Source: Deltaproteobacteria bacterium
Lineage (GTDB): Bacteria; Myxococcota_A; Polyangia; JAAYKL01
Length of the DNA: 45,796 nt
Assembly: GCA_030621515.1 (NCBI GenBank)
Contig: JAUXHN010000009.1
Span: forward strand, 1-45,796
Direction of reading: 5' to 3'
Each line of letters begins with the position of its first letter. Position 1 is the first letter of the stretch. Below the pieces are notes generated by a model. The model had not been told where the DNA came from and searched no databases. It was given only the letters and a program-made list of their open reading frames with translations. Made by a program: the position numbers and the translations under genes. Positions 3,199 to 35,373 of this stretch are shown in pieces.

Positions 3199-3251
3199 CA
3201 AACAATTCTCATAGATGGTATGATCATCTCAACAGATGGAGGTGGGCCAAG

Positions 3252-4586: not shown

Positions 4587-4649
4587 CTTTTCCCACGTCC
4601 TGTCGCAAGTCATGTTACAATTTCCAAATCAACTAAAAGAGGTGCGATC

Positions 4650-5852: not shown

Positions 5853-6106
5853 ACACGGAGAAAACAAGCCCTACAGAAGCTCGAGTTTGTGCCAGAAGGA
5901 CGGATTCGCGGCAGAGTTGCCTTAGCCTGCTTAATGCGCCAAATGCCGAAGTAAAATTGTGAAGACCGTGTCCGGATTTGGGCGAGCGGAGGATCGAAGG
6001 AGGCAGGCGCATCCGTCGATGCGTCGACGACTGAGAGTCGAGCACGGCCAAAGACGGCGCGGGATACGCGATTTTACCGGCAGGCTGGCGAATTATGCAG
6101 GTTAGC
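5853..6106. other. 254-bp non-coding stretch with a decayed gene 3' end
   Basis: No credible gene was found. Bases 5871-5911 match the last codons of the metallophosphoesterase at 6715 (see the repeat entries). The rest holds only short inverted repeats such as GCATC-cgtc-GATGC. The track ORF on the minus strand (5845-6051) has no recognisable protein features. Confidence 0.5.
5871..5911 (-). repeat. 41-bp repeat copy 1: remnant of metallophosphoesterase 3' end
   Basis: Read on the minus strand this copy encodes PSFWHKLELL followed by a stop, nearly the same as the ASFWHRLELL end of the gene at 6715-7518. It matches copy 2 at 36 of 41 bases. The match stops after about 15 codons, and a stop codon lies just upstream in frame. 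It is a gene-end remnant or an attachment-like duplication. Confidence 0.75.
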
Positions 6107-6565: not shown

Positions 6566-6617
6566 AAATGTAACCTCTTTTCCCCGTTATTCAAGGTGTA
6601 CAAACGCTGTAGCCTAG

Positions 6618-6671
6618 TTGTCGTGCAGGTCAGAGGAAATCCCCTCACTCTTCGAGGGGCCTGCGCGACAA
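6618..6671. other. Large intergenic hairpin, 12-bp outer and 6-bp inner stem
   Basis: TTGTCGTGCAGG (6618-6629) pairs with CCTGCGCGACAA (6660-6671), with one T-G wobble. Inside it CCCCTC (6641-6646) pairs with GAGGGG (6654-6659). An 11-base bulge lies only on the 5' side. No T-run follows directly on either strand, so it is not a simple terminator. It could be a small structured RNA, an mRNA 3' stabiliser or a fold-back mobile remnant. Confidence 0.65.
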
Positions 6672-19408: not shown

Positions 19409-20551
19409 TCAATCAAACATGCTGATAAACATCCCGGCTGCGGCAGCCGAGCCGATAACTCCAGCCAGATTTGGTCCCAACGCGTGCATTAGCAGATTAT
19501 TGGATTCGTCATATTTTTGACCCTCGGTCTGACAGACTCGTGCTGCCATTGGAACAGCCGAAACCCCCGCCGCGCCGATTATGGGATTGATCTTGGTCTT
19601 GACAAAAAAGTTCATAATCTTGGCGGTCAATATGCCGCCGACTGTACATACCGCGAAGTCGACAAGGCCCAATCCGAAGATCAATAGCGGTTTCCAGGTG
19701 AGAAACTTTTCGGCATGCATTGTGGCGCCCACGGAGAGTCCCAGGAAGATCGTTACGATGTTCATCAAGGCACCCTGCGATGTCCCGGTCAGGCGCTCTA
19801 CAACACCACTTTCCTTCATCAGGTTGCCGAACATGAACATTCCCAGAAGCGGTATGACCGAAGGCACGAGCAACGCGATGATGGTCACAGCTACAATTGG
19901 GAAAAAGATTTTTTCTGTCTGGGAGACCGGTCTGAGCTGACTCATCCTTATCATTCGTTCTTTCTTTGTAGTCAGTAATCGAATGATGGGAGGTTGCAAA
20001 AGCGGGACCATGGCCATGTACGAATATGCCGCCAGCGCATTGGGCCCCAGTAACTGCGGAGCCAGGTGCTGCGTCAAATAGACTGTCGTCGGCCCGTCAG
20101 CGCCGCCGATAATACTGACCGAGGCCGCCTCCTTGAGAGTGAAACCGGCGATCACCGTGCCGGTGAAGGTGATGAACACACCAAGCTGTGCGCCGGCTCC
20201 AATGAGCAGCGACTTGGGATTGGCTATGAGCGGCCCAAAATCGGTCATGGCCCCGAGACCCAGGAAGATGACACAAGGAATCACCTCCCACTCCAATCCA
20301 TAATGGTAGAATATTTGCAGGAGTTGGTCGTGGCCATGGGAATGGCCCATCAGTGGAACCAGCGGGAAATTGACGATGAATATTCCGAAACCGATGGGAA
20401 GAAGCAGCAAAGGTTCAAACTTCTTTGCAATCGCCAGGTATATGAACCCCCCACCAACAACCCACATGATGAGGTATTTCCAACTAAACGTCGGTATTCC
20501 CGTCGTGTAGATTATGCCCCACAACGTATCTAATGCGTCGTATATGCTCAT
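19409..20551 (-). CDS. Second sodium-pumping decarboxylase beta subunit
   Basis: The 380-aa membrane protein carries all core motifs of OadB/Mmd[84 protein letters not shown] and HALGPNLAGVIGSAAAAG. It decarboxylates carboxybiotin and exports Na+. Unlike the oadB at 7531 it lacks the acidic N-terminal insertion and has a His-rich loop (GHSHGHDQ). No alpha subunit is next to it. It may use the OadA at 8904 or another one elsewhere. It is followed by the gamma-like gene. Confidence 0.88.
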   Translation of the reverse strand: MSIYDALDTLWGIIYTTGIPTFSWKYLIMWVVGGGFIYLAIAKKFEPLLLLPIGFGIFIVNFPLVPLMGHSHGHDQLLQIFYHYGLEWEVIPCVIFLGLGAMTDFGPLIANPKSLLIGAGAQLGVFITFTGTVIAGFTLKEAASVSIIGGADGPTTVYLTQHLAPQLLGPNALAAYSYMAMVPLLQPPIIRLLTTKKERMIRMSQLRPVSQTEKIFFPIVAVTIIALLVPSVIPLLGMFMFGNLMKESGVVERLTGTSQGALMNIVTIFLGLSVGATMHAEKFLTWKPLLIFGLGLVDFAVCTVGGILTAKIMNFFVKTKINPIIGAAGVSAVPMAARVCQTEGQKYDESNNLLMHALGPNLAGVIGSAAAAGMFISMFD

Positions 20552-20809: not shown

Positions 20810-21676
20810 TTATTCCAGTAATCGAACGATATCTCTCCACGTCTTTTCGAGGGCAGTCTTTACCTCGGGGATCACCAGGGGAGTCTCCCTCCGGGCGAGG
20901 GCCCTGGGAACTCCTTCGTCGAATGGGACCCTTCCCACCGTATGCGCCCCGCGATTTTTCACCATCTCCTCGATCTCCTCGGTGACCGCCACGCTCAGGT
21001 CGTACTTGTTGACCACCACTGCCGATTCGAGCTTGAAGTGATCGCACAGGTCGAGCATTCGTTTCAGATCGTGCGCCCCGGACGACGACGGCTCCGTGAC
21101 CGCCACCACCAGATCGACTCCACCGACGGCTGGATGGACCGGGCATCCAATGCCGGGCGGCCCGTCGAAGATCGCCAGATCGATGTTGCGCTCCATCGCG
21201 ATGAGTTTTGTATCGGCGCGCACCTTTGCCACCAGTTTTCCCGAGTTGTCCTGCGCAATGCCCAGAGCGCCGTGAACCATGGGCCCCGTCGATGTCTCCC
21301 GGTGGAACAGGGTACCGGCCCTGTTGTTCATAAAAGTGATGCAGTCCTCGGGGCAGACAACACTGCACGCACGACAACCCTCGCAGAGAAGATCGTTCAC
21401 CCTTGCAAGATTATCGATCACCGGAATCGCCTCGTAGCGGCACGCGTTCTCGCATTCGCCGCAACCGGTGCACTTGTTCTCATCGACACGCGCTCTTTTG
21501 CCCGCGAGGAACGGTTCTTCCACGAAATCCTCTCCGTGCATCAGCAACGCAAGGTTTGCCGCGTCCACGTCGCAATCGCCCAGGGCGACAGGCCCCTTCG
21601 CCAGGTGCGCAAAGGCGGCGGTGAAGGAGGTCTTGCCGGTGCCGCCCTTGCCGCTCACCACTACTATCTCCTTCAT
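20810..21676 (-). CDS. MinD-superfamily ATPase with inserted ferredoxin domain (ORP-cluster type)
   Basis: The 288-aa protein begins with a deviant Walker A, VVSGKGGTGKTSFTAAFA. A two-[4Fe-4S] ferredoxin insert follows at residues ~65-115 (CTGCGECENAC and CEGCRACSVVCP). The ATPase core resumes with FDGPPGIGCPVHPA and VAVTEPSSSG. Such proteins occur in pairs in anaerobes. In Desulfovibrio vulgaris two of them (DVU2103 and DVU2104) belong to the orange protein complex. It overlaps its sister at 21673 in ATGA and is the last gene of the cluster. It probably couples ATP use to Fe-S or metal-cluster handling. Confidence 0.88.
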   Translation of the reverse strand: MKEIVVVSGKGGTGKTSFTAAFAHLAKGPVALGDCDVDAANLALLMHGEDFVEEPFLAGKRARVDENKCTGCGECENACRYEAIPVIDNLARVNDLLCEGCRACSVVCPEDCITFMNNRAGTLFHRETSTGPMVHGALGIAQDNSGKLVAKVRADTKLIAMERNIDLAIFDGPPGIGCPVHPAVGGVDLVVAVTEPSSSGAHDLKRMLDLCDHFKLESAVVVNKYDLSVAVTEEIEEMVKNRGAHTVGRVPFDEGVPRALARRETPLVIPEVKTALEKTWRDIVRLLE

Positions 21677-22542
21677 GGGGATACTCCTTGCGCCAGGGAG
21701 AGCAGGCCCTGAGCCAGCTTCACGATAGAGCTCGCAAACTCGGAACTGTCCTCCATGGGCATTCGCGAGGCGGCGTATGATTCGGCGACCGCGCGATCGA
21801 ACGGGATCTCGGCGAGCACCGGGATCGATCTGGCCTCCAGCAGGGCGCGGGTCCCGTCACCACCAATATCCGACCTGTTGATCACCGCAGCCATTTTCCT
21901 TCCCAGGGCTTTTCCCATCTCCAGCGCGAGGATGAGATCGTGCTCGCCGAAGGGTGTCGGTTCCGTTACCAGCAACACCAGGTCGGCGATCTCCACTGCG
22001 GCCATCGCCGAACAGGAGGTTCCCGGCGGGGCGTCGATTACCACCAGGCGATCGCCATCCGCATTTTCGGTTGACGCTTCCACGACGCCGGAGATCAACG
22101 GAGTGACCCGCGCCTCTCCCACGTCCAGGGTCGCCGAATAGAACTCGAGACCATTCGAGTCGCCGTGCGTGATGGTCCCGATCTCCCGCCCGGTCTCCTG
22201 CAGAAAACCCTCGGGGCAGGCGAGCACGCAGGCGCCGCACCCGTGGCACAGCTCGTCGAAGACGATCACGCTTCCCTTTGCGGAAAGAATCGCGTTGAAC
22301 GCGCAAATCTCCTGGCACTTTCCGTGGGCAGCGCAGGTCCGTCCTTCAAGGGTGGGTATTTTCACGGTGAAACGTTTCTCTTCGATCACATCGGGCTTGA
22401 GGAAGAGGTGTCCGTTCGGTTCCTCCGCGTCCGCGTCCACATATGTGACCGCTTTATTCCCGTCAGCCCACAGCCTCGCGAGACTCGTGGAGATCAGGGT
22501 CTTGCCGGTGCCGCCCTTGCCGCTGGCCACGGAGATGATCAT
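21673..22542 (-). CDS. Second MinD-superfamily ATPase with ferredoxin insert
   Basis: From ATG 22542 (MIISVASGKGGTGKTL) the 289-aa product has the deviant Walker A. The ferredoxin-like insert has a first Cys set (CAAHGKCQEICAFNA) that looks less canonical than the second (CHGCGACVLACP). The core motifs IDAPPGTSCS and LVTEPTPFGEHDL follow. This asymmetric spacing is seen in the orange-protein ATPases. The start shares a base with the stop of the NifX-like gene upstream (TGATG), and its end overlaps the next ATPase. The track's longer ORF is an artefact of the upstream gene. Confidence 0.88.
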   Translation of the reverse strand: MIISVASGKGGTGKTLISTSLARLWADGNKAVTYVDADAEEPNGHLFLKPDVIEEKRFTVKIPTLEGRTCAAHGKCQEICAFNAILSAKGSVIVFDELCHGCGACVLACPEGFLQETGREIGTITHGDSNGLEFYSATLDVGEARVTPLISGVVEASTENADGDRLVVIDAPPGTSCSAMAAVEIADLVLLVTEPTPFGEHDLILALEMGKALGRKMAAVINRSDIGGDGTRALLEARSIPVLAEIPFDRAVAESYAASRMPMEDSSEFASSIVKLAQGLLSLAQGVSP

Positions 22543-22901
22543 CAGTATTTCACGATCTGCATTTGCGTGAGCTGCCCGGCTACCATCTTGTCGAGGGCCT
22601 GCCCCGCGGTGAGACCCTGCGGGGCGTTCCACATCTGAATTCCGAGTCTGCTCAGGGCTTCGTATGCCTTTGGACCGAATCGACCGGCGATAACCGCGTC
22701 CACATTGGCGCCGGACATCGTGGCGGCAGCTCCGGTTCCCGCGCCGTGGGCTGCCTCGACCGATTCATTGTCGATAGTCGAAATGATTTCCCTTGTTTCG
22801 GCATCCACAATGAGGAACACCCCCGCCCGACCGAAGCGGGGATCGATCAGCGTGTCGAGATCCCCGGCGTGTTCCAGTGTGATTGCTACCAGCTTGCCCA
22901 T
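22542..22901 (-). CDS. NifX/NifB-C family protein (ORP-like), copy A
   Basis: The 119-aa protein has the RNase-H-like NifX fold pattern: VAITLEHAGDLDTLIDPRFGRAGVFLIVD, GAGTGAAATMSGANVDAVIAGRFGPKAYEAL, ending ALDKMVAGQLTQ. Family members bind Mo-Fe-S or Mo-Cu-S cofactors and include the orange protein of Desulfovibrio. No nifHDK genes are present, so nitrogenase maturation is not implied. It is sandwiched between the second NifX-like gene and the ATPases with one-base overlaps, which supports joint action. The bound metal cannot be read from sequence. Confidence 0.88.
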   Translation of the reverse strand: MGKLVAITLEHAGDLDTLIDPRFGRAGVFLIVDAETREIISTIDNESVEAAHGAGTGAAATMSGANVDAVIAGRFGPKAYEALSRLGIQMWNAPQGLTAGQALDKMVAGQLTQMQIVKY

Positions 22902-23300
22902 TCAGTGACCCCCGCAACTATCAGCGTGATCGTGAGCGCACGGCACGATTCCCTTGATGTCACCCCGCAAGTAGGCGTCCAGGACATTCTTGACATTTCC
23001 GATGGCCCCGGTGGCGACCTCTATTCCCATGTTGATGAAAAGGTCGATCGCTCTGGGTCCCATACCTCCCGCCAGGATCACGTTTGCACCCAGATCCCTG
23101 ATGAAGGCCGGCATAACACCTGGCTGGTGGCTGCCGTAGAACGAGTTGCGCTCCACCTTGGACTCCATAACCGTATCCCCTTCTATGCTCACCATGAAAT
23201 AGTATGGACACCTGCCGAAGTGTTGGCTCACCTGCCCGTCGAAACCCTTGTCATCCTCGACGGCGATGGCGATGTACTTTTTGGTTTTCTGTTCGTTCAC
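22902..23300 (-). CDS. NifX/NifB-C family protein, copy B, with His/Cys tail
   Basis: The 132-aa protein has KYIAIAVEDDKGFDGQVSQHFGRCPYYFMV, the typical HFGRCP turn of this family, and GANVILAGGMGPRAIDLFINMGIEV. Its C-terminus adds CAHDHADSCGGH, a likely extra metal site. It is close in layout to the DVU2108-type orange protein, but identity would need an alignment. It lies directly upstream of copy A (no gap) and 32 nt after the Mrp ATPase. It is probably a metal-cluster carrier or binding subunit. Confidence 0.88.
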   Translation of the reverse strand: MNEQKTKKYIAIAVEDDKGFDGQVSQHFGRCPYYFMVSIEGDTVMESKVERNSFYGSHQPGVMPAFIRDLGANVILAGGMGPRAIDLFINMGIEVATGAIGNVKNVLDAYLRGDIKGIVPCAHDHADSCGGH

Positions 23301-23332: not shown

Positions 23333-24178
23333 TTACCGATTCGTTTTTTCGTTCCATCCGCGTTCAAGGTTCGCAGCGATCTCCGTGAGCATCAGGGACG
23401 CGGGATTATCCGGCAGATCGACCACCAGCGGCTTGCCCGAGTCTCCCGCCGACACCATGGCGGGGGCGATCAGGATCCTTCCCAGAAACGGAACATCCAT
23501 CTCTTTTGCGGCCCGCTCCCCGCCCCCGGTCTTGAAGAGATCCACCCTGTGACCGCACTCGGGGCAGACAAACCCTGACAGGTTTTCCACGATGCCCAGC
23601 ACCCGCTGGTCCATGTCCCTCACAAAATTGACACACTTGCGCGAGTCCAGCAATGCCACATCCTGCGGAGAAGTGACTATCACCACGCCGTCGGAATCGG
23701 GGATCAGCTGGGCCACGGTCATGGGTTCGTCCCCTGTTCCGGGCGGGCAATCGACTATCAGGACATCGACGCCCTTCCAGTTGCCCTGGCCCAGGAATTG
23801 CCGGATGAGCGAGGACTTTCTGGGACCCCTCCAGGCCACGGGCACCGTGGTGTCCGGAAGAAAAGAGGCGATGGAGAGCACTCGCACTCCGTCTCGAGCC
23901 CTTGCCGGCGCGAGTGTGCCGTCATCGGAGCCGTAGACCCGATAGCCCTCCGTGCCTGTCATCAGGGCCACGTTGGGGCCGTGCAGATCCGCGTCCACTA
24001 TCCCCACTGATTTGCCCATGGCCGCAAATGCGTAGGCAATGTTCACCGAGATGGTGGTCTTGCCCACGCCTCCCTTCCCGCTCATGACCAGGATCTTGTG
24101 GGGCACTTCCGCCATGGCCGTCCGCGCGGCGCTCTCCTCTTGCTCCAGCTTGTGCGACATATTTACATTGCAAGACAT
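23333..24178 (-). CDS. Mrp/NBP35-type P-loop ATPase (Fe-S carrier)
   Basis: The 281-aa protein is a Mrp/NBP35-family ATPase: VMSGKGGVGKTTISVNIAYAF, VDADLHGPNVALM, LIVDCPPGTGDEPMTVAQL and VTSPQDVALLDSRKCVNF. GFVCPECGHRVDLF supplies the bridging CxxC. These proteins bind and pass on [4Fe-4S] clusters. In Desulfovibrio a longer Mrp protein (DVU2109) is part of the orange-protein system; here no NifX domain is fused, and separate NifX-like genes follow instead. It starts 2 bases after the DUF5320-like gene. The first ATG has no clear ribosome site, so coupling to the upstream gene is likely. Confidence 0.9.
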   Translation of the reverse strand: MSCNVNMSHKLEQEESAARTAMAEVPHKILVMSGKGGVGKTTISVNIAYAFAAMGKSVGIVDADLHGPNVALMTGTEGYRVYGSDDGTLAPARARDGVRVLSIASFLPDTTVPVAWRGPRKSSLIRQFLGQGNWKGVDVLIVDCPPGTGDEPMTVAQLIPDSDGVVIVTSPQDVALLDSRKCVNFVRDMDQRVLGIVENLSGFVCPECGHRVDLFKTGGGERAAKEMDVPFLGRILIAPAMVSAGDSGKPLVVDLPDNPASLMLTEIAANLERGWNEKTNR

Positions 24179-24180
24179 GG

Positions 24181-24399
24181 CTAACGATTACCCCGGCCGC
24201 GTCCACCCCGGCCCTGGCCCTGTCCGCCGCCACCACCCTGTCCGCGTCCCCGTCCACCACCCCGGGGTTCTCCTCCGCGTCCGATCCCGCGCAGAGGTTT
24301 TTCATTCTGCGCCGTGTCCTTGTCGTCGTTACATTTTCCAAGACCCCTTCCCGTTCTGGGGCCGTCTCCTTGTGGTCCTTTTCCATCAAATCCTGACAT
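24181..24399 (-). CDS. DUF5320-like small Gly/Arg-rich protein
   Basis: The 72-aa protein starts at ATG 24399 behind GGAGGATGAG. MSGFDGKGPQGDGPRTGRGLGKC matches the MPGFDRTGPxGxGPxTGRGxGxC start of DUF5320 proteins, which are often found beside NifX and MinD-type genes in anaerobes. The second half is almost only Gly, Arg and Gln (RGGEPRGGGRGRGQ, then GQGRGGRGRGNR). The track gives it as the tail of a 248-aa ORF, whose upper part overlaps the NifX-like gene in another frame. The role is unknown. It may be a disordered scaffold or nucleic-acid binder. Confidence 0.75.
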   Translation of the reverse strand: MSGFDGKGPQGDGPRTGRGLGKCNDDKDTAQNEKPLRGIGRGGEPRGGGRGRGQGGGGGQGQGRGGRGRGNR

Positions 24400-24413
24400 C
24401 TCATCCTCCTTGA

Positions 24414-24446: not shown

Positions 24447-24857
24447 CTAGTTGTTTTCTCTTCGGCCTTTTGGGCCACCCTTGCCTCGACCTCGTCCACC
24501 GCGCCTCGGCCCGAACCATCCGGGGGCGCCCTGCCTGCAACAGCGGGCGACGGGAAGCTCCTCTCCCCGTGCGTATGTCTCCACCAGATCCGATGCGTCT
24601 CCCGCGAGCCCGGCGATAATGCTTATCCCCAGGTTCTGTGCGAGGGGCTCGAATCGACGATTGAAGCCTCCGCACAGGATCAACTCCACGCCGAGATCTC
24701 TCAGCCCGGTCAGGCGGTCGTGCCAGCCGGCGGCGACCAGGGCGATAACGGTTGTTCGATCCACGCGGCCATTCGATATCTCCGCGAGCAGCAACTGGTC
24801 GGCAAAGCCGAATCTGGGCGCCACCCGGGTGCCAAAAAGTGGAACAGCAACCTTCAT
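24447..24857 (-). CDS. NifX/NifB-C family protein, copy C, with basic Gly-rich tail
   Basis: Starting at ATG 24857 (AGGAGG upstream) the 136-aa protein shows the NifX pattern in shortened form: MKVAVPLFGTRVAPRFGFADQLLLAEI, GVELILCGGFNRRFEPLAQNLGI and DLVETYARGEELPVARCC. The tail GWFGPRRGGRGRGKGGPKGRRENN is strongly basic and Gly-rich. Two adjacent Cys (RCC) could bind metal. It is the first gene of the cluster, 24 bp from the sigma-54 promoter. The track's TTG start at 24860 is too close to the ribosome site to be used. Confidence 0.82.
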   Translation of the reverse strand: MKVAVPLFGTRVAPRFGFADQLLLAEISNGRVDRTTVIALVAAGWHDRLTGLRDLGVELILCGGFNRRFEPLAQNLGISIIAGLAGDASDLVETYARGEELPVARCCRQGAPGWFGPRRGGRGRGKGGPKGRRENN

Positions 24858-24880: not shown

Positions 24881-24897
24881 AGCAATGTTGATGCCAA
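24881..24897 (-). promoter_or_regulatory. Sigma-54 (-24/-12) promoter of ORP-like cluster
   Basis: On the minus strand TTGGCATCAACATTGCT has the required GG and GC exactly 10 bases apart, inside good flanking matches (TTGGCA and TTGC). A start site ~12 bases after GC would fall near 24870, just before the AGGAGG ribosome site of the first gene. A sigma-54 activator gene lies in the window (30180-31562). Confidence 0.8.
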
Positions 24898-24972
24898 AAT
24901 CGCTAACTTATGAATATTTCTGGCCAAACCTCAAAACACGACAATGAATGTTCCAAAACGGGCGGGATAAAT

Positions 24973-25019
24973 GAAACGATAAGTTTCTCCGCTGAAACAT
25001 TGTTCCTTTAAATTGAAAC
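24973..25019. promoter_or_regulatory. Candidate activator-binding repeats (GAAAC/GTTTC)
   Basis: GAAAC occurs at 24973, 24994 and 25015, and its complement GTTTC at 24983. They form two overlapping inverted repeats with 5- and 6-base spacers. They lie ~80-120 bp upstream of the sigma-54 promoter, the normal place for enhancer-binding sites. The palindrome AACATTGTT (24997-25005) is also there. Confidence 0.45.
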
Positions 25020-25027
25020 ACCAGAAG

Positions 25028-25843
25028 CTATTCGCAGTGACCCTCGCCGTCGATATGACCGAGGGTGGAGGTCATGTGGGAGATGAAATCCCACATGTTG
25101 AAGATGTCGAGGCTTCCAACTCCGTAGTTGGAGAGGGTCGTGATGTCGTGATCGGCCAGCTCCGATGCGGTCACTTCGCTGTCGTCGTTCGCGTCCGCGA
25201 GCGCTATTTCGCCGAAGAGCAGGCCCGGCGAGGCGCTCACCGCGTCGTCGTAGAACAGATGATCCCCGTGGATGGTGAGCTGGACTGTTGCCTCGCTCCC
25301 GTCAGCAAGGACAGCCTCCGAGTGACACGGATCGTAGACAGTCTCGGTGTCGAAGCCCCATGCGAAGGTTTTTGTAGAGGCGCCATCGGTGGCCGATCCG
25401 GCCACGTAGACCGAGTAGCCTTCATCGATCATCAGCTGCAAGTCGTCGTCTGTCGCATTTCCCGATACGCTCGAAACGGTGGCCCTTGTGATGCTGTACG
25501 CGGTGCGATCGTAGTGCCCGGTGGAGGCAACGGCCGAGACGATATCGAACGGGCCCTGCATCGTGAGATCCCAGACTCTCATTTCCTGCTCGTCGATGAT
25601 CGGCGACGATCCCTCCTTCGCGACGGTGATCCCACCGAGATTGATCAGGAACCTGTCAAAGGTGACGGCGTACCCGTCCGCGAACTCGGTCGCCGGGATG
25701 CCGTCCTCGATGTACTCTTCCCCCCACAGTTCCAGGCCGAGGGTTCCCGTTGCGCTCTCGTCATCCGAACAGCCGATTCCAATCGACGCCGGCGCGGCAA
25801 GCCCCGCGAGTAAAATGGTCGTTACCGTTTTTGAAAAGTTCAT
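25028..25843 (-). CDS. Lipoprotein of a TonB-receptor operon, function unknown
   Basis: ATG 25843 follows AAGGAGAAGAA. The 271-aa product has a lipoprotein-type signal peptide ending in GIGC and a mature part beginning SDDESATG. VTFDRFLINLGGITV and AYSITRATVSSVSG look like beta strands of an Ig-like domain. Candidate metal ligands include HGDHLFYDD and the C-terminus GHIDGEGHCE. I do not recognise a family. It is the last gene behind a second lipoprotein and a TonB-dependent receptor, so it may help capture the same ligand at the outer membrane. Confidence 0.7.
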   Translation of the reverse strand: MNFSKTVTTILLAGLAAPASIGIGCSDDESATGTLGLELWGEEYIEDGIPATEFADGYAVTFDRFLINLGGITVAKEGSSPIIDEQEMRVWDLTMQGPFDIVSAVASTGHYDRTAYSITRATVSSVSGNATDDDLQLMIDEGYSVYVAGSATDGASTKTFAWGFDTETVYDPCHSEAVLADGSEATVQLTIHGDHLFYDDAVSASPGLLFGEIALADANDDSEVTASELADHDITTLSNYGVGSLDIFNMWDFISHMTSTLGHIDGEGHCE

Positions 25844-25862
25844 TTCTTCTCCTTGCATTGTT

Positions 25863-26654
25863 TCATGGTTGTGGGATCACGCTGTAGTGATCATGTCGTA
25901 CAATGGTCTTTGCCAGCACGTTGTGGGCTTCGTCACCGGGCTCTATGAGGGCGATACCGTCATGGTCGTCATCGATTTCAAGGAAGTCGAGGCCGTCGAA
26001 CAGGGTGTCGTTCTCGTAAGGATCTATGGTGTGGATCCGCAAGGCGAGAGTGGACGAGGTGTTCTCGGTCACATCGAGGGTGAACGGACCTCCCACCATC
26101 CCGGTTCCGTCTTCCACGTCCAGGACAGCTGTGAAATCAACGATGTCGGAGCCTCGCGTGGCCTTGCCCTCTATCACGGCCGTGTGGCCGAGCAACGGAT
26201 CGTTCACGTCGAGGCCGTCCGATTCCAGCGCGGCGCGGAAATACAAGTTGAAACCGTGGTACTCGCCGACCAGGAGATCCGCACGGCCCAGGCTCTGTTC
26301 GACGCCTGCATGTAGATCGAGCACGAAGTCGCCGGTCAGCTCGCCGGTCACCTCCCCTCCCGCAAGGTGGCCGGGGTGTGCCAGGGCCGTCGGGATCAGT
26401 AGTTCCGAGATCCTGCCGGACAGGCCGGCGTGGATCTCCCCCTCGACGGTGAACTCCAGATCCCGGACGGCCAGACGGAAAGTGGAAACCTCAACGGTCC
26501 ACCCCTCATCGTTGACACACGCCACTATTTCATCACCATCGACAACCACCGGCAGGGAGATCAAGGCCGGTTCATCTCCGCCAGGATCGCACACCCCGAC
26601 GATCAGCGCGGCGGCGAGCAGCGCGATGGTGATGATGATTGTTCGTTTCCACAT
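25863..26654 (-). CDS. Lipoprotein partner of TonB receptor
   Basis: The true start is ATG 26654 (MWKRTIIITIALLAAALI) because the track's 599-aa ORF runs back through the receptor gene in the wrong frame. The 263-aa protein has a lipobox VGVC. The mature part is beta-rich: EGWTVEVSTFRLAVRDLEF, PTALAHPGHLAGGEVTGEL, VEQSLGRADLLVGEYHGFNLYF and acidic DDDHDGIALIEPGDEAHN. The AHPGH and HDH motifs could bind metal. The family is not recognised. It lies 17 nt after the receptor and 19 nt before the next lipoprotein. Confidence 0.72.
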   Translation of the reverse strand: MWKRTIIITIALLAAALIVGVCDPGGDEPALISLPVVVDGDEIVACVNDEGWTVEVSTFRLAVRDLEFTVEGEIHAGLSGRISELLIPTALAHPGHLAGGEVTGELTGDFVLDLHAGVEQSLGRADLLVGEYHGFNLYFRAALESDGLDVNDPLLGHTAVIEGKATRGSDIVDFTAVLDVEDGTGMVGGPFTLDVTENTSSTLALRIHTIDPYENDTLFDGLDFLEIDDDHDGIALIEPGDEAHNVLAKTIVRHDHYSVIPQP

Positions 26655-26671
26655 GGTTCTATTGTCCAATC

Positions 26672-28741
26672 TCAAAGATGTGCGGTGAGCACGATCCGCG
26701 CAGTCAGCGGCTCCCCCGCCACATAGTGAATTTTCGGGATGACGCTGCGCTCCTCGGTGGGGTCGAAGCGAGACGCGTAGTGGTAGGCGCCCTCCATGAT
26801 CTTCCACCCCAGGGCGTTGTCCACGATGATGCTCACGTCGAAGCGCGTAAAGCGCCAACCCGCGTTCAGATCCAGTCTTGCGTAGCCGTCGACGCCGGCT
26901 CCATGAGCAAGCGGGCGCGCGCCGATCCACAGGACACTCGACCCGCCGTACGGGCCCCGATCCTCGCCGATGAAGAGCCGCAAGGCGCCAAGCCAGACGG
27001 GGGCGCCGGGCACGGGGTTTCCGGATTCGTTGAACCGTGCGTCGGTCCAGGTGACCTCCGCGAGGGTCGACAGCCACGAGGCCGGCCTCAACGCAGTCGA
27101 TGCTTCCAGGCCCAGACGCCTCGTTCCATCCATCTCCAGGTTCGTGTTGCTCACGTGATCGAACAGCATCTCGCGCTCCATCCAGGTGGCGAAACCGGCG
27201 ATGCGAAAGACAGCGACCTCGTGTGGAGAGATCTCGGCGCCCATCTCTGCGGAATCGCAGGTAGCGGTCTTGCGCGATCCCCCGAAGTACGGAGCGACCG
27301 TTTCGTCTTCCGGTGTGCCAGCAGGAGCGACGATGGCCCTTGACTCGGGCGCCCTGAAACCCCGACCGTAGTCGGCATAAAGTGTGACCTTGCGATGGAC
27401 GGGAAAGGAAATAGCCATCCTCGGTGAGATCGCCACCTCGGTATCGTCGGCTGTCCGCTCCTCGAGTTGATCGCGCGCGTCGAAAAAAAACAGATCGAGT
27501 CTGATGGAGGGATAGATCTCCAGCCAGGACCAGGGCGAGAGCCGGTATCCCGTGAACAGGTGGACGTGCTGTATCCCGGCGTCCAGGTGGCGGTTCGTCT
27601 GCCATGCGGCACCGGCATCGTCGACCTGCGCCTCCCGCTGGCGTAACACGTCCAGCCTCCACCCTGCCCCGGCGAGCAAGGCGGACGCATATCCGGTGGA
27701 GAGCCTGTGCTCCAATTCGATGTCCGCCCCGACCGAGCCGCCGGACTGCTGTTGCCGCTTGCGGTCACCGCGAACCTCGTGGACCAGCCTGCCCGTGAAG
27801 TTCTCCTCCAGAGAAAACTGCCGGAGCATGCCGTACACAAAGATGCCCAGATCCGTATCGCCGGTATCTCGATTCATACCGAGCCGCGCGAGCACCCGAT
27901 CGGAAAGACCCTCTCCCGCCGGACCGTAAGCGCCGTGAAAATCGATCTTCCCGTCCTCCACGTCTGCGAGCCGCAAGGCGCCAGGGGATTCGAAGCGGGC
28001 TGCCTGGGCCATGAGGAGCGCGTTCAACTCGGTTCCGTCGCTCGTGCCCCGGCTGCGACTGCTCAGGAAGGCTGCGCGCATGGCCTCCCGGTCCGGTCCG
28101 AAACCGCGATCGTAGACGGCCTCCGCAGCGACGAACGTCTCCTCGGGTTGGCCTTCCGGAGCGACGACCACCACCGAACGCAACCGCCCCCGATGGCTGA
28201 CCTCGGTTCGAACCAGCCCGGGCCGGAGATCGTCCGGAACCCCCAGGCGAAAGCCGATGGATCCAGCGGTGGCGAAGTTACCCTGCCATGGAAGGAACGG
28301 GCCCTTGACGGCGGTGATCTCCATGATGACCTCGGGGATGATGCCGTACAGATCCAGATATCCCTGCCCGTGAACATGGGACGGCTCGTTAAGAGAGATG
28401 CCTTCTAGCAGCACCTCCACGTCGCTTCCGTGAACCGCGTCGAAACCTCGAAGGAAGAGCTGGTGTCCCTTTCCCTGCGCCCCGTGTTGAACGACGGTGA
28501 CTCCCTGTACGAGCTCGAGGATCTCGTCGGTCGACGAGGGGTGGGCTTTTTCGATCTCCTCGGCGGTGACGGAAACAGTTCCTGCGGACATGGGCGGACG
28601 ATGGGAACGCACAACGGTTTCGTAGGTTTCAATGAGGTCGTGACTCGCGGGATCCTCCTCACCCGGCTCGCCCGCTGCGGAAGAAAGGCAGACCAGTGTT
28701 GCGCAAAGAGGCAACATCCGGGATAGAATACGAGAGAGCAT
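26672..28741 (-). CDS. TonB-dependent outer-membrane receptor
   Basis: The 689-aa protein has an N-terminal signal (MLPLCATLVCLSSAAG). A plug domain follows (GTVSVTAEEIEKAHPSS, ILELVQGVTVVQHG, LFLRGFDAVHGSDVEVLLEG, PEVIMEITAVKGP). A ~22-strand barrel comes next with FRAPESRAI and ends LTARIVLTAHL. His residues in the plug (NEPSHVHGQGY) suggest a metal or metal-complex ligand, but this is inference. It heads an operon with two lipoproteins. Neither ATG 28741 nor 28717 has a ribosome site. TATACT lies 8 bases before ATG 28741. Confidence 0.9.
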   Translation of the reverse strand: MLSRILSRMLPLCATLVCLSSAAGEPGEEDPASHDLIETYETVVRSHRPPMSAGTVSVTAEEIEKAHPSSTDEILELVQGVTVVQHGAQGKGHQLFLRGFDAVHGSDVEVLLEGISLNEPSHVHGQGYLDLYGIIPEVIMEITAVKGPFLPWQGNFATAGSIGFRLGVPDDLRPGLVRTEVSHRGRLRSVVVVAPEGQPEETFVAAEAVYDRGFGPDREAMRAAFLSSRSRGTSDGTELNALLMAQAARFESPGALRLADVEDGKIDFHGAYGPAGEGLSDRVLARLGMNRDTGDTDLGIFVYGMLRQFSLEENFTGRLVHEVRGDRKRQQQSGGSVGADIELEHRLSTGYASALLAGAGWRLDVLRQREAQVDDAGAAWQTNRHLDAGIQHVHLFTGYRLSPWSWLEIYPSIRLDLFFFDARDQLEERTADDTEVAISPRMAISFPVHRKVTLYADYGRGFRAPESRAIVAPAGTPEDETVAPYFGGSRKTATCDSAEMGAEISPHEVAVFRIAGFATWMEREMLFDHVSNTNLEMDGTRRLGLEASTALRPASWLSTLAEVTWTDARFNESGNPVPGAPVWLGALRLFIGEDRGPYGGSSVLWIGARPLAHGAGVDGYARLDLNAGWRFTRFDVSIIVDNALGWKIMEGAYHYASRFDPTEERSVIPKIHYVAGEPLTARIVLTAHL

Positions 28742-28802: not shown

Positions 28803-29075
28803 ATGAAGCTCCTGCTGGACGGTCATTGCATAGAAACCGAGGCGCGCAGGCAACGTGACAGGCTGGTGAAGGAGGTTCTGTCGTCAGCTGACGAGCACAG
28901 CCACGGACCGGGAGTTCAACGGGATCTGGAGCTGCTGACCGATTTCCTCACGAGTACTGACTTTCGCGCGTTGAGGGCGCGGCGCACGGAACTGGAAGGT
29001 TCCGGGCTGATAACGGTCGAGATCATGCGCACCGGAGATGGTAAGGTGGTGGTCATCGAGGAGCAAACACCATGA
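28803..29075 (+). CDS. Unknown 90-aa protein coupled to CGGC-domain gene
   Basis: ATG 28803 follows GAGGCGAAGC. The protein is mostly helical and charged (EARRQRDRLVKEVL, QRDLELLTDFLTSTDFRALRARRTELEGSGL) and ends with a beta segment (GDGKVVVIEEQ). One Cys and three or four His lie in the first 35 residues (DGHCIE, DEHSHGP). I do not recognise a family. Its last 4 bases overlap the CGGC gene (ATGA), so the two are translationally coupled. It is divergent from the TonB receptor. Confidence 0.7.
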   Translation: MKLLLDGHCIETEARRQRDRLVKEVLSSADEHSHGPGVQRDLELLTDFLTSTDFRALRARRTELEGSGLITVEIMRTGDGKVVVIEEQTP

Positions 29076-29518
29076 ATGAAAAAGTTAAAATCGGGATTAT
29101 CATTTGCGACCGCTACCGCACTTGTGCCGGGGGCAAGTGCCTGAGATCTCTTCGCAACAGAGAAGGCGCCTTCAGTATCTACGAGAACCAGGAGGTTGAG
29201 CTGGTCGGGTATGCAACCTGTGCCGGCTGCCCGGGAGGCAACGTCGAATACGCCCCTCAAGAGATGAAGAACAACGGAGCCCAGGTCGTTCACTTCGCAA
29301 CGGGGTTGATCGTCGGATATCCACCCTGTCACCGAATCGCCTTTTTTCGAGATTTCGTCGAGACGAAATTCGGGATGAAGGTTGTTATCGGGACGCATCC
29401 CATTCCCCAGAAATATCATAGTACGCACACCGCGTTGAAAACCTGGGAATCCGTACAATGGCAGGAAATGATTCAACCGACGTTGGTGGATAAGAAAATG
29501 CGCCTGGCTTATGATTGA
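29072..29518 (+). CDS. CGGC-domain protein, predicted metal-binding
   Basis: The 148-aa protein starts with KIGIIICDRYRTCAGGKCLRSLRNREGAF and continues with VGYATCAGCPGGNVEYAPQEM, FATGLIVGYPPCHRI and VVIGTHPIPQKYH. This is the layout of the CGGC domain family (PF08821), with several Cys likely to bind metal. Function is not established for the family. Coupling to the unknown 90-aa gene and closeness to a TonB operon and the ORP-like cluster suggest a metal role. Confidence 0.85.
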   Translation: MNEKVKIGIIICDRYRTCAGGKCLRSLRNREGAFSIYENQEVELVGYATCAGCPGGNVEYAPQEMKNNGAQVVHFATGLIVGYPPCHRIAFFRDFVETKFGMKVVIGTHPIPQKYHSTHTALKTWESVQWQEMIQPTLVDKKMRLAYD

Positions 29519-30179: not shown

Positions 30180-31562
30180 CTAGATCAGTCCGTAACCCTT
30201 CATCCTTCGCCACAATGTTGTACGGCCGATACCCAGCTCCCTGGCGGTGGCGGTGCGGTTCCAGCCGTGGGCCTCCAGAACAGAGAGCAGCTTGCGGACC
30301 TCCGGGGTGTCCGGGCGGTTCGCGGGTTTGATTGTATCGGTCATGGCGATCTTCTTCTCGGAGGGAAGGGGACCGGTGACCGACGCGCGAGGGACGCGCG
30401 AGTCCGACGGGTAAACGACCTCCGGGGGAAGGCAGTGGGGCTCGATTGTGCTTCGCGAACAAAGGACGAACGCGCGCTCGATGATGTTCCTCAGTTCCCG
30501 CACGTTGCCCGGGTACTTGTAGTCGTAGAGCAGCCTCATGGCCTTGCGGCTGATGCCGGGCGCCGGGCGTCCCGTGCGAGCCGAATGCAATTTGACAAAG
30601 TGCTCGATGAGCAGGGGGATGTCCTCCCGTCGTTGGCTCAGCGGCGGCAGATCGATCGGGATGACCCGTATTCGATAATAGAGATCCTCGCGGAACCGGC
30701 CGTCGGCCACCATGCTCTCCAGGTCCTGGTTGGTCGCGCAGATCAGCCGCACGTCGACCTTGATCGTTTTTGTGGCTCCCAGGGGTTGAATCTCACCTTC
30801 CTCGAGAGCCCGGAGCAGCTTGACCTGGGACGCCGGTGAGATGTCGCCGATCTCGTCGAGGAAGAGGGTGCCTCCGTGGGCCAGCTGGAACCGGCCGGGC
30901 TTGTCGCGGTTGGCCCCCGTGAAGGCGCCCCTCACGTATCCGAAGAGCTCCGACTCGAGAAGTGTGTCCGGCAGGGCCCCGCTGTTCACGCGGATAAATG
31001 CGCTGTCCTTTCGCGGTGACAGGTCGTGAACCGCCTGCGCAACGAGCTCCTTTCCCGTGCCGCTCGGCCCCCTCACGAGAACCGGCGCCTCGGACTCGGC
31101 CACCTGTGGGATCAGCGCAAAGATCTCCCTCATTGGGGCGCTCTGTCCGATGATATCCCGAAAGCTTCGACGTCCGTCCAGCTCGCTGCGCAGGGTTTCC
31201 ATCTCGGAAACGTCCTTGAAAATCTCGACCCCTCCGATCAGGCGGCCGTCACTGTCCCTCAACACCGCAGTCGATATCGTGATGGGCACCGACTCCATAT
31301 GAGCGTTCAACACGTCAACGCGAACATCGCGCTTCGGCTCGCCTGTCCGGAGCGTGGATCTCAGGGCGCACCCTTTTTGACAGATGCTCGCCCGCAGCAC
31401 CTCGTGGCACGGTTTTCCGACGGCATCGCTCTTGGAGATACCGATGATGCGCTCGGCGGCGGCGTTGAACGACGTGATCCGGAAGTCCTCGTCAACCGTG
31501 AAGACACCTTCATTGATGCTGTCGAAAATCAGCGGGAAAAGCTCGTCGGGGCATTCATTCAT
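30180..31562 (-). CDS. PAS / AAA+ / Fis-type sigma-54-dependent activator
   Basis: From ATG 31562 (MNECPDELF) the 460-aa protein has a PAS domain (residues ~5-115). The PAS domain contains the Cys motif CHEVLRASICQKGC, known from related regulators and possibly redox or metal sensing. The AAA+ domain follows with Walker A GPSGTGKELVAQAVHD, the sigma-54 contact loop GAFTGA and LFLDEIGDIS. The C-terminal helix-turn-helix is WNRTATARELGIGRTTLWRRM. It activates sigma-54 promoters with ATP. A sigma-54 promoter lies at 24881. In Desulfovibrio an activator of this kind (DVU2106) controls the orange-protein operons. TATATT lies 6 bases before the ATG. Confidence 0.9.
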   Translation of the reverse strand: MNECPDELFPLIFDSINEGVFTVDEDFRITSFNAAAERIIGISKSDAVGKPCHEVLRASICQKGCALRSTLRTGEPKRDVRVDVLNAHMESVPITISTAVLRDSDGRLIGGVEIFKDVSEMETLRSELDGRRSFRDIIGQSAPMREIFALIPQVAESEAPVLVRGPSGTGKELVAQAVHDLSPRKDSAFIRVNSGALPDTLLESELFGYVRGAFTGANRDKPGRFQLAHGGTLFLDEIGDISPASQVKLLRALEEGEIQPLGATKTIKVDVRLICATNQDLESMVADGRFREDLYYRIRVIPIDLPPLSQRREDIPLLIEHFVKLHSARTGRPAPGISRKAMRLLYDYKYPGNVRELRNIIERAFVLCSRSTIEPHCLPPEVVYPSDSRVPRASVTGPLPSEKKIAMTDTIKPANRPDTPEVRKLLSVLEAHGWNRTATARELGIGRTTLWRRMKGYGLI

Positions 31563-31683
31563 TGACGAAATATACGACCCAAACCGGAGACTTCCACGAA
31601 AAATCGAAATAAAAAGAAGGCGCACCCTCAAACAGGTTGTTTCGACTGGAGCATGATATATTGTTCAGCCAAGGCGACACCGG

Positions 31684-31947
31684 ATGAACGAATACGAATC
31701 GAAACTAATGGGCAAACTGATCGAGCACCTTCAACTGGAGGATGTCGATCTGAGCGAGATCACCGGCAAGACGCAGCTCTTCGGTGATGACGGCCTGGAA
31801 TTCGACTCGATTGACGCCATCGAAATAGAGATCATGATCCAGAAGGAATACGGCGTGGACATTCTTCCGTCCGAGAGATCGAAGTCGTCATACAGCGACC
31901 TGGGCACCCTCTCCGGCTTCATCCAGGGCAAGCTCGTATCAAAATAG
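31684..31947 (+). CDS. Acyl carrier protein
   Basis: The 87-aa protein has the ACP four-helix pattern with the phosphopantetheine Ser in GDDGLEFDSIDAIEIEIMIQKEYG. The DSID form differs from the DSLD of primary fatty-acid ACPs. It begins the ACP-HTH-BtrH-ABC operon and would carry a thioester-bound acyl or aminoacyl group. It lies 121 bp from the divergent sigma-54 activator. TATATT lies ~25 bases upstream, but no matching -35 is evident. The next gene starts 43 bp downstream. Confidence 0.88.
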   Translation: MNEYESKLMGKLIEHLQLEDVDLSEITGKTQLFGDDGLEFDSIDAIEIEIMIQKEYGVDILPSERSKSSYSDLGTLSGFIQGKLVSK

Positions 31948-31990
31948 CCCGGCGCGTTCCGCCGCGCTGCAAGGACACACAGAGGGATCA

Positions 31991-32461
31991 ATGATAATCA
32001 CCGAGACGCCAGAACAACAAAAACACCCGCACAGGTTCCTCATGTGGGACGCAGACAAGGATGGGAAGTGCGTCTCGTCGTTGACAGAGTCGGAGTTCGC
32101 ATCTGACATCCATCTATACTACGAACAACGTGCCATGGAGGTGAGGTGTCTCCTCGCCAGGCTGACGGACAATGAGATCAGCCCTGTCTACTTCTTCATG
32201 GATTACCAGCAAATCGCCGTGAAGGATCTGGCCTCGCGCGTGCGTGTGAGCGCCTCGACAGTCAAGAAGCACCTGACACCGGATGGGTTCAAGAAAGTGA
32301 GCATCGAAATACTCCAGCGATATGCCCGAGTGTTCGACATTGTGCTCGCGGACTTTTTCAACTTTACGTTCGTTCCCGACGATATTCACGTCAGGAATAC
32401 GAGACACAACAACCGTCTGCTGCAAAAAACGACGATCACGGCAAATGAAAACAATACATAA
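31991..32461 (+). CDS. Helix-turn-helix protein of the BtrH operon, unknown
   Basis: The 156-aa protein starts at ATG 31991 behind AGAGGG. A Cro/C1-like helix-turn-helix is in the middle (QQIAVKDLASRVRVSASTVKKHLTP). The N-terminal ~70 residues are unlike known domains (FLMWDADKDGKCVSS, YYEQRAMEVRCLLARL) and the C-terminus is basic and polar. It could be a local regulator or a structural partner. Its end overlaps the BtrH-like gene by 17 nt, so production of the two is linked. Confidence 0.7.
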   Translation: MIITETPEQQKHPHRFLMWDADKDGKCVSSLTESEFASDIHLYYEQRAMEVRCLLARLTDNEISPVYFFMDYQQIAVKDLASRVRVSASTVKKHLTPDGFKKVSIEILQRYARVFDIVLADFFNFTFVPDDIHVRNTRHNNRLLQKTTITANENNT

Positions 32462-33524
32462 CTACACTCACGAGGTTGCCGCCCACTGCGAAACGGGCAG
32501 CGTGCGAAACCTCATCAAGCACGCCGGACTGGAAGTGACGGAACCGATGATCTTCGGAATCGGCTCCGGACCTGCCTTTTACTACCTGTTTTTCGTCAAG
32601 GGGCCCTGTAAATTTCCGCTCATCGGCATCCGCACGCCGCCCGGCACAATTCTGAAGAACGTCTCAAAACTCAGCGGTATCGACTTCTTCTCCAGGCAGT
32701 ACTCGAACACCGACAAGGCATTGGCCAAAGCTCACGAATTGCTCGAAGCCAATGTGCCGGTGGCCCTGAGCGTCGACATGTTTTACATGAAGTACCTGCC
32801 CTCCTTCCTCCACGTCCATGCGCCGTTTCACTTCATCATCCTCGTGGGCGTGGAAGGCGATCGCTATACGATCTCGGATCCCTACTTCGAAGAGATCGGC
32901 TACCTTCATATAGACGACCTGAGAGCCGCCTGGGAGACCCATGCACCCCTCGCAAAGGACAACTCTCTCTTCCACGTGAAGAATATCCCTGGCGAGATAG
33001 ACTGGAAGACCGCCGTCATCAGGGGAATGAAGCGCACCTGCAAAAACATGATCCTCCCGCCGGTCATCAAGAACCTTATGTTCTTCGTGGGAATCCAGGG
33101 GATACGGACCTACGCAAAAAAGATCCGCCAATGGCCGAAGGACTACTCCGGCGTGATACTTCGCGAGGGTATACTCTTCAACGCCGTGGGTTTCGAAGAC
33201 CAGGGGACCGGCGGCGGCGCGTTCCGCCTGATGTACGGCGCCTTTCTCCAGGAGGCCGCCGAACTGCTGGGGTCCGCCGCCCTCGTGGAAATGGCCGACC
33301 GGATAATCGAGCACGGACGAAACTGGCGGGATATCTCCAGGATGCTGATTCGCCTGGGCAAAAAGCTGCCCACAAGCGATGAAGAATACAACGATTGGAT
33401 CCAGCAGAACGCCGGGATGCTCGATGACGGTCTCGGTGAGATCGCCGGTCTGTTTGAAAAGGCGGCAGACGTGGAAGACAGGTTCTTCAGGGATCTCGGC
33501 AGAATCGCCGCTGATCTGGACTGA
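32445..33524 (+). CDS. BtrH-like papain-fold acyltransferase (BtrH_N / DUF4872)
   Basis: The 359-aa protein has HCETGSVRNLIKHAG at the start. This matches the BtrH N-terminal domain, whose nucleophile would be Cys15. His129 in APFHFIILVGVEGDRYTISDP and Asp145 complete a papain-like triad. The C-terminal part (~210-359) resembles DUF4872 (GILFNAVGFEDQGTGGGAFRLMYGAFLQEAAELLG). BtrH moves an acyl group from the carrier protein BtrI onto an amine in butirosin synthesis. Here the ACP two genes upstream could be the donor. ATG 32445 is chosen; the track start adds 41 residues in the previous gene's wrong frame. Confidence 0.85.
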   Translation: MKTIHNYTHEVAAHCETGSVRNLIKHAGLEVTEPMIFGIGSGPAFYYLFFVKGPCKFPLIGIRTPPGTILKNVSKLSGIDFFSRQYSNTDKALAKAHELLEANVPVALSVDMFYMKYLPSFLHVHAPFHFIILVGVEGDRYTISDPYFEEIGYLHIDDLRAAWETHAPLAKDNSLFHVKNIPGEIDWKTAVIRGMKRTCKNMILPPVIKNLMFFVGIQGIRTYAKKIRQWPKDYSGVILREGILFNAVGFEDQGTGGGAFRLMYGAFLQEAAELLGSAALVEMADRIIEHGRNWRDISRMLIRLGKKLPTSDEEYNDWIQQNAGMLDDGLGEIAGLFEKAADVEDRFFRDLGRIAADLD

Positions 33525-33546
33525 CAACCAGAGGGGGAAAAGCCCC

Positions 33547-35373
33547 ATGGACGGAAATCATAAATGGTGGAACGCCTGGGCGCCCTACTGGGAGTACCTC
33601 GAAGACCGCCATATGAGCACGCGGATCGCAGACAAGCTCGCCGAGGGCATACGCGGCCCGGTCCTCGTTCTGGGCGCCGGACAGGGCTTGATCGTCGAGC
33701 GCCTCAGGGAAAAGGGGCTCAGTGTCGACGGTGTCGATCTCGATGACCGAATGATCGCGCTGGCGAAGACCCGTCGTTCCCTGGAGATCCAGCGCTGTGA
33801 CGCGGCCGCCCTTCCCTTTGAAAACGAGAGTTACAGAACCGTCATCGTCTCGACCGGCGTGATCGACTACCTGACCGATAATGAAAAGATCGCGAGAATA
33901 ATCGCGCAAGCCCGACGCGTAACGCGCTCGCGTGGAGACGTGATCTTCGCATTCTACCAGGCCGACCCCGCCCTGAAGGAAATCTACCGGCGAATAGGCA
34001 TCCTCTCTTGCGACGGACGCTGGTATCACATGAGCCGCATGTTCGAGATCTTCAGGACGCTCAAGATTCATCCGCTGCGCTGCGTCCCTCTGGTAGCTCG
34101 ATGGACGGGAAGTTCGATCTTCTCCGCGTTCTTCTACTGGTCGTGGCTGGGTCTGACTCTGCCCGCAAAGATGAAGGAAGAGCAACAAACCATAGAGCGT
34201 ATCTTCGAGCTCGCAGAAAAAGACGGGGTGGAGGCCGATGTACTCTACGACAGTGTCCCCGAACGCCTGCCGTATCGAGATCAAGCCGCCGTCCGCGATC
34301 TGCTGAAGGAAAACGGTATCGCCAATCCGCAAATCGATGAGGTCGACGACTGTATCATCGCAAGACACCGAGTCTTTGAACTGAACCGGGAGCCTCCACA
34401 TGAACACACGAGGCCCCCCGCCATCTTGACCACCGGCCTTTGCAAACGATACGGCAATACCGTCGCGGTGGATGCCGTGGATCTGGTGGTCGAACAGCGG
34501 ACTATACACGGAATACTCGGACCAAACGGAGCAGGAAAAACAACGATCATATCCATGCTCGTCGGGCTGGTTCAACCCGACGCAGGCTCCCTTACATTCC
34601 CGGGCCTGAGCAGCAACGAAGATCCCGCACACGCCATCGGCTACGTTCCCCAGGAGTTGGCGCTATACACCCGGCTTTCAGCGCGCCGCAACCTCGCTTT
34701 CTTCGGAAAACTATACGGGATCCGGAAGCCGGAACTGGACGAACGCATCGAACACCTCCTGCAGGTGGTCGGCCTGGGAGAACGCGGCAACGAACCCGTC
34801 TCGAACTTCTCCACCGGGATGATGCGGCGCCTGAACCTGGCGGCCGGTCTGCTCCACAAGCCGACAATCATCTTCCTGGACGAGCCCACGGTCGGCATAG
34901 ATCCGCAATCACGTAACTGCATCTTCGAGGCCATCTCGGAAATAAGGGACACGGGCGCCACCGTCATCTACACGACCCACTACATGGAAGAAGCCATGCT
35001 GCTGTGCGATCGGATCTCCATCATGGATCACGGTCGGATCGTGCTGGAGGACACTCCGGCGCGCGCAGTTGCAAGCTACGGTTTGACCCGAATGGATTTC
35101 GTAACGGACGGCACCACAGGCCTGGAACTTGAAAAGGAGATGATGGCAATTGGACCGGTGAAGGACGTTGTCGCGAATGACGGCACTATTTCCGTGTTCG
35201 GGAGCCGGATCGAGAACACCGTCGAACTCCTGAACGCGATCAAGACAACCGCCATGCGGCGGGGGGTGAAAATCTCCCTGCAAAGCGTCCGCGAACCTTC
35301 CCTGGAGAGCGTCTTCCTCGACATCACCGGCAAGAACCTGAGGGACGCTCTTTTGAAAGAGCGAACTCGATGA
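33547..35373 (+). CDS. SAM-methyltransferase fused to ABC-transporter ATPase
   Basis: The 608-aa protein starts at ATG 33547 behind GAGGGGGAAAAGCCCC. Residues ~1-280 are a class I methyltransferase (motif I VLVLGAGQG, acidic VDGVDLDD, IVSTGVIDYL) with a possible membrane-associated patch (SIFSAFFYWSWLGLTLP). Residues ~291-608 are an ABC ATPase: GPNGAGKTT, FSTGMMRRLNLA signature, FLDEPTVGIDPQ, H-loop TTHYMEE and the C-terminal VFLDITGKNL typical of exporters. There is no stop or start between the two parts in this frame. The ATPase pairs with the permease downstream (ATGA overlap). The substrate of either half is unknown. Confidence 0.85.
   Translation: MDGNHKWWNAWAPYWEYLEDRHMSTRIADKLAEGIRGPVLVLGAGQGLIVERLREKGLSVDGVDLDDRMIALAKTRRSLEIQRCDAAALPFENESYRTVIVSTGVIDYLTDNEKIARIIAQARRVTRSRGDVIFAFYQADPALKEIYRRIGILSCDGRWYHMSRMFEIFRTLKIHPLRCVPLVARWTGSSIFSAFFYWSWLGLTLPAKMKEEQQTIERIFELAEKDGVEADVLYDSVPERLPYRDQAAVRDLLKENGIANPQIDEVDDCIIARHRVFELNREPPHEHTRPPAILTTGLCKRYGNTVAVDAVDLVVEQRTIHGILGPNGAGKTTIISMLVGLVQPDAGSLTFPGLSSNEDPAHAIGYVPQELALYTRLSARRNLAFFGKLYGIRKPELDERIEHLLQVVGLGERGNEPVSNFSTGMMRRLNLAAGLLHKPTIIFLDEPTVGIDPQSRNCIFEAISEIRDTGATVIYTTHYMEEAMLLCDRISIMDHGRIVLEDTPARAVASYGLTRMDFVTDGTTGLELEKEMMAIGPVKDVVANDGTISVFGSRIENTVELLNAIKTTAMRRGVKISLQSVREPSLESVFLDITGKNLRDALLKERTR

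Follow-up and report, generated by a model that had tools for sequence, protein, structure and literature searches.

OrpR (DVU2106) of Desulfovibrio vulgaris is reportedly an Fe-S redox sensor. At sigma-54 promoters, the polymerase forms a closed complex on the -24/-12 element, and an activator bound to upstream sites drives its opening with ATP through a DNA loop. NtrC-type enhancers are bound by a Fis-type helix-turn-helix and consist of dyads whose half-sites start with TG, located at about -100 to -150, while the NorR enhancer presents three activator dimer sites before a sigma-54 promoter and was proposed to nucleate the activator hexamer. The orp operons of D. vulgaris are divergent and are driven by DVU2106, sigma-54 and IHF, the activator sites being palindromes at -131 and -88 (PMC3897727); the DVU2106/sigma-54 regulon is listed likewise in PMC4641369. 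The ORP complex and MrpORP were described in PMC6345978.

We analysed a window of 45,796 nucleotides (the whole stretch of DNA under study) from an uncultured member of the Myxococcota, whose genome is available as a 4.64-Mb assembly (G000), together with two relatives of the same genus (G001 and G002). The circuit encoded there is the Desulfovibrio orp/DVU2106 (OrpR) logic with a DNA recognition sequence of its own. It is highly probable that a sigma-54 promoter and phased activator sites control an ORP-type iron-sulfur gene cluster through the PAS-AAA+-Fis activator encoded at 30180, a reading that draws on the promoter, the operator array, the activator family, the gene neighbourhood, the co-occurrence of operator and recognition helix and the presence of rpoN, all taken from sequence. 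With D. vulgaris orp1 and orp2 the window shares sigma-54 promoters, a genetically linked single-component activator and a very small regulon. The sequence-only reading had already drawn this parallel, and the use of sigma-54, of the cognate DVU2106 and of palindromic sites is indeed documented in D. vulgaris (PMC3897727). The layout differs, as the window contains one operon with its activator 5.3 kb off whereas in Desulfovibrio two divergent operons surround the activator gene. The window also has three tandem activator sites at 21 bp; compared by position, not by sequence, these are centred at -110, -131 and -152, against -131 and -88 in Desulfovibrio. Finally, no IHF consensus was found between the array and the promoter, whereas the Desulfovibrio orp operons use IHF; the best match has 2 mismatches, and a divergent site is possible.

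The gene set held in common with Desulfovibrio orp, i.e., NifX/ORP proteins, two MinD-ferredoxin ATPases and Mrp, is complete in the window, where all genes of the set lie on the minus strand. The first gene (24447-24857) encodes a NifX/ORP-like protein of the Nitro_FeMo-Co type, which falls below the Pfam cut-off and matches the C-terminal domain of the MrpORP model. It is followed by a small DUF5320-like gene (24181-24402, match just below the cut-off), a gene for an Mrp/NBP35 P-loop Fe-S carrier (23333-24178), two further NifX/ORP-like genes (22902-23300 and 22542-22901) and two genes for Orp3/Orp4-like MinD-type ATPases, one with a ferredoxin domain (21673-22554) and one with 4Fe-4S motifs (20810-21676), these last four assigned by domain matches. 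The two-domain MrpORP fusion is absent: unlike its Desulfovibrio counterpart, the Mrp protein lacks the C-terminal ORP domain, covering only positions 1-250 of the 365 of the model, and the ORP domains are encoded as separate proteins. Just downstream of the operon, 19409-20551 encodes an oxaloacetate-decarboxylase beta-type sodium pump subunit, a second copy of which is found at 7531-8895.

The predicted sigma-54 promoter of this operon, TGGCATCAACATTGCT (24881-24896, minus strand), is separated by 13 bp from the Shine-Dalgarno sequence of the first ORP-type gene. On the minus strand (TTTTGGCATCAACATTGCT; ATTTTGGCATCAACATTGCTTTGCACTCCAGGCAGGAGGTTTGATG), GG at 24895/24894 and GC at 24883/24882 enclose exactly ten nucleotides, as had been claimed, and a simple -24/-12 weight matrix ranks this element first in the window with a score of 15.4, the runner-up reaching 12.6. 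The predicted +1, at about 24870, is the inferred transcription start of the ORP-type operon; it lies just ahead of the first ribosome site, in agreement with the sequence-only reading, with AGGAGG at 24867-24862 (minus strand) preceding the ATG at 24857. A loose IUPAC promoter scan of the whole window with 2 mismatches gave no significant excess (16 sites found, 14.4 expected), although no site other than TGGCATCAACATTGCT came within 1 mismatch of the pattern. Genome-wide, a stricter version, TGGCAYNNNNNWTGCW, has 26 matches against 14 for the reversed control (genome-wide statistics, here and below, derive from pattern searches). As this is only about twice the control, the motif alone is weak, and what counts is where it lies and that it is conserved. 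In an alignment of the three genus members, TGGCA-C-TTGCT is kept with changes at weakly constrained positions only, GG and GC are retained in both relatives, and the Shine-Dalgarno sequence is conserved as well. When 300 bp upstream of the NifX1-type gene were scanned in 50 loci, sigma-54 sites with a score of 12 or more were found on the sense strand in 34 loci and on the antisense strand in 1. The genome also encodes rpoN (E 1.7e-63), the absence of which would have counted against the promoter.

Farther upstream, plus-strand GAAAC at 24973, 24994 and 25015 and GTTTC at 24983 are arranged as GAAAC-N5-GTTTC-N6-GAAAC. These repeats had been noticed before and proved rare by chance and conserved, but they are better described as three phased sites than as two overlapping inverted repeats. 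TGAAAC recurs on the plus strand at 24972, 24993 and 25014, reading GTTTCA toward the promoter, with an exact 21-bp period. The three putative operators lie on the minus strand. Operator III, the promoter-proximal one (24972-24988, centre about -110), was delimited by dyad search and alignment and is the dyad AGAAAC-TTATC-GTTTCA, completed by the GTTTC at 24983. Operator II, AAAGGAACAATGTTTCA (24993-25009, centre about -131), and operator I (25014-25030, centre about -152), both delimited from the 21-bp pair and the alignment, have one perfect arm each, GTTTCA in operator I, whose second arm is degenerate and overlaps the stop codon of the upstream gene. A TGGAAC in the spacer (24950-24955, minus strand) may be a weak extra half-site. 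Counted from the -24 element, the array lies about 80-120 bp upstream, as first reported; counted from the predicted start, that figure does not hold and the span is -103 to -149.

Among 5000 dinucleotide shuffles of the 167-bp intergenic region, 13 contained three equally spaced copies of a 6-mer and 14 contained four GAAAC/GTTTC (mean 0.65), while four of them per 60-bp stretch were reached in none of 200 whole-window shuffles. The 26-bp GAAAC/GTTTC pattern without mismatch occurs exactly once in the genome, and the 4.64-Mb assembly contains two copies of GTTTCA-N15-GTTTCA, both of which lie at this promoter. In the relatives, the latter falls at the corresponding promoter for the single copy of G001 and for 2 of the 3 copies of G002. 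The GG/GC pair and the repeats, for which a scan of relatives had been proposed, are kept in both; the genus alignment of three members preserves the three GTTTC cores and the spacer TGGAAC. G002 has a perfect proximal dyad (TGAAACATTATGTTTCA), and that of G001 is near-perfect. No perfect 17-bp dyad was found in the G000 genome, and single one-mismatch dyads are not commoner there than in the control; only the array rises above it. Perfect dyads fall in the ORP locus in G005 (1/1), G012 (2/3), G007 (1/2) and G002 (1/2).

The activator gene (30180-31562, minus strand) encodes, according to its domain matches, an OrpR-like protein composed of a PAS domain, an AAA+ domain with a GAFTGA loop and a Fis-type helix-turn-helix with recognition helix RTTLWRRMK. 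The domains and the distance of 5.3 kb are as previously stated, whereas the start had to be corrected, ATG 31562 being likelier than TTG 31631. The PAS cysteines C-x8-C-x3-C are invariant in 12 orthologs. In a sample of 379 genomes of the phylum, 20 carry this PAS family, and the nearest named relatives of the activator are MAGs labelled Deltaproteobacteria/Myxococcota. A degenerate dyad, CGAAACAACCTGTTTGA, is located ahead of the activator gene (31628-31644, minus strand); it is better preserved in G001, where it is one mismatch from perfect, and it recurs in several relatives, therefore suggesting possible autoregulation.

The interval that separates the activator from the ORP operon (25028-28741) encodes a TonB-dependent receptor and two proteins without a Pfam match, an arrangement seen in this genus only among the loci inspected; in G009 (L126), homologs of the latter two are likewise neighbours of a related activator. 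A CGGC-domain protein, putatively metal-binding, is encoded at 29072-29518, divergently from the TonB operon and near the activator. On the other side (31684-36698), a small acyl-carrier-protein-like ORF, an HTH protein, a methyltransferase, an ABC ATPase and permease-like ORFs were assigned by eye and, by the same eye, resemble a small biosynthetic or export cluster. The activator match in G004:C314 (L086/L113) contains one in-frame TGA, which may reflect an assembly error or a match extending upstream of the real start.

Activator orthologs, roughly 54-95% identical, are found near ORP-type genes in G001, G002, G004, G005, G007, G012, G017 and G040. Family members adjoin NifX, Mrp or MinD-ferredoxin genes in most of 80 further loci (L128-L207) from the Myxococcota, Thermodesulfobacteriota, Planctomycetota, Nitrospirota, Acidobacteriota and Krumholzibacteriota. 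An unbiased dyad search recovered TGAAAC-N5-GTTTCA in 11 of the 13 loci whose activator carries an RTTLWRR helix, the next-best motif reaching 3 and shuffles 2-3; its everted counterpart, GTTTCA-N4-TGAAAC, was shared by 8 of the 13. The dyad occurs near ORP or activator genes in 11/13 RTTLWRR loci versus 1/71 loci with other helices; the corresponding Fisher p of 5e-11 ignores shared ancestry and is inflated, because three loci come from one genus and ten from one clade. In the RTTLWRR loci L142 and L143, the dyad was not found near the labelled genes. Locus L185 is the best independent case of helix/operator pairing: its activator is 46% identical and is excluded from the clade of the window's activator (AU test p 2e-10, long branch), yet it has the same RTTLWRR helix, and the locus contains TGAAACCCGTTGTTTCA upstream of a sigma-54 site with a score of 18.6. 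Three identical TGAAACTTGAAGTTTCA copies in G013 (C419:80, C448:7770 and C501:71), two of them near contig starts, are probably part of a repeated element rather than operators.

The source genome contains a second ORP-type cluster (L116, G000:C30:4500-14500, at 1637-6630) with its own PAS-AAA+-Fis activator and a fused MinD ATPase. There the activator helix is PSTLYRK, the promoter is TGGAATGGATGTTGCT and the upstream sequence is of the TGCAA type, without TGAAAC. Given the different helix and upstream half-site, the two circuits appear to be insulated from each other.

The conserved gene neighbourhood and the co-occurrence of operator and helix tie the repeats to the 30180 activator and support the original proposal that sigma-54 and a nearby activator would control the ORP-like cluster. 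The promoter could nevertheless be real and driven by another, or by several, of the roughly 20 sigma-54 activators of the genome, the 30180 protein controlling something else, since the genome encodes about 22 convincing AAA+ activators and unrelated genes lie between the promoter and the 30180 gene, 5.3 kb away. We judge this unlikely: the neighbourhood is conserved across families and phyla, the operator co-occurs with the recognition helix of this very activator, in several relatives the same dyad also precedes the gene for the activator, and the paralogous second activator adjoins its own cluster, which has a different upstream sequence. Less likely still, the repeats could serve an unrelated regulator or form an RNA hairpin or terminator at the 3' end of the upstream gene, with only the -24/-12 element being relevant. 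The array does start at the upstream stop codon and inverted repeats this short could base-pair in a transcript, yet the predicted fold is no better than that of shuffles (z -0.17), no terminator-like site was found, and the repeats are kept despite different upstream genes (L110, L111, L112 and L185); the hairpin or terminator reading was consequently rejected. It is very improbable that the cluster owes most of its transcription to read-through from the TonB-receptor operon and that the sigma-54-like site is a chance match: this operon lies on the same strand, no terminator was found behind the upstream gene and the loose promoter pattern is common by chance, but the position and conservation of the promoter, its 34:1 strand bias across loci and the lack of the upstream genes in most relatives argue otherwise.

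For the preferred reading, that is control by sigma-54 and the 30180 activator, we propose the following mechanism. Sigma-54 RNA polymerase would occupy the -24/-12 element without being able to melt the DNA alone, and dimers of the 30180-31562 activator would bind the three GTTTCA-ending sites which, spaced by 21 bp, lie on the same helix face. Such helical phasing could aid assembly into a hexamer, three dimers making one hexamer, and the activator ATPase would then reach the promoter by DNA looping and open it. We infer activator binding, hexamer assembly on the three sites and Fe-S redox sensing from these features. The PAS domain probably holds a cysteine-bound iron-sulfur cluster, by analogy with Desulfovibrio OrpR, and the activator would work only under reducing, anoxic conditions; the invariant PAS cysteines and the OrpR parallel make a redox-controlled switch likely. 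The three dimer sites recall NorR, which differs in having a GAF rather than a PAS sensor, a nitric oxide signal and a different half-site. The Fis-type helix-turn-helix, the TG half-sites and their distance recall NtrC-type enhancers, although NtrC is a response regulator and has a different half-site.

Other helix groups hint at a possible general code linking recognition helix and operator. K[TSA]TLWRK loci are enriched in the ATTGCA half-site (50 observed, 8.7 expected) and RNTLWR loci in TGGAAC (18 observed, 3.5 expected). TGGAAC dyads occur in 3 of 8 RNTLWR loci, a count equal to shuffles in these GC-rich loci, so this pairing is suggestive only despite the half-site enrichment. The KSTLFR and STLYR groups show only weak GTCGCA enrichment. 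Counter-examples exist: RTTLWRK activators of other lineages, taken from a second sample (L255, L256, L259 and L265), have no TGAAAC cluster upstream of the labelled genes, and a rule by which any RTTLW helix reads TGAAAC is contradicted and not general as stated, although the gene neighbours are poorly defined in these loci. An OrpR-type rule valid across several phyla (RTTLWRR/TGAAAC, RNTLWR/TGGAAC and K[TSA]TLWRK/ATTGCA), combined with a 21-bp triple array scaffolding hexamer assembly, is thus a tentative proposal that we hold to be somewhat doubtful. If the helix-to-operator rule were true, a single residue change from T to N would switch one half-site base.

A circuit worked out in a single sulfate-reducing bacterium is extended by this analysis to anaerobic Myxococcota and, judging from gene neighbourhoods, also to the Planctomycetota, the Nitrospirota and further phyla, and an explicit operator is given for an OrpR-type circuit. 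The natural operator/helix pairs offer direct tests of DNA recognition by Fis-type sigma-54 activators. Together, these observations support the idea that a dedicated sigma-54 system commonly controls ORP-type iron-sulfur clusters.
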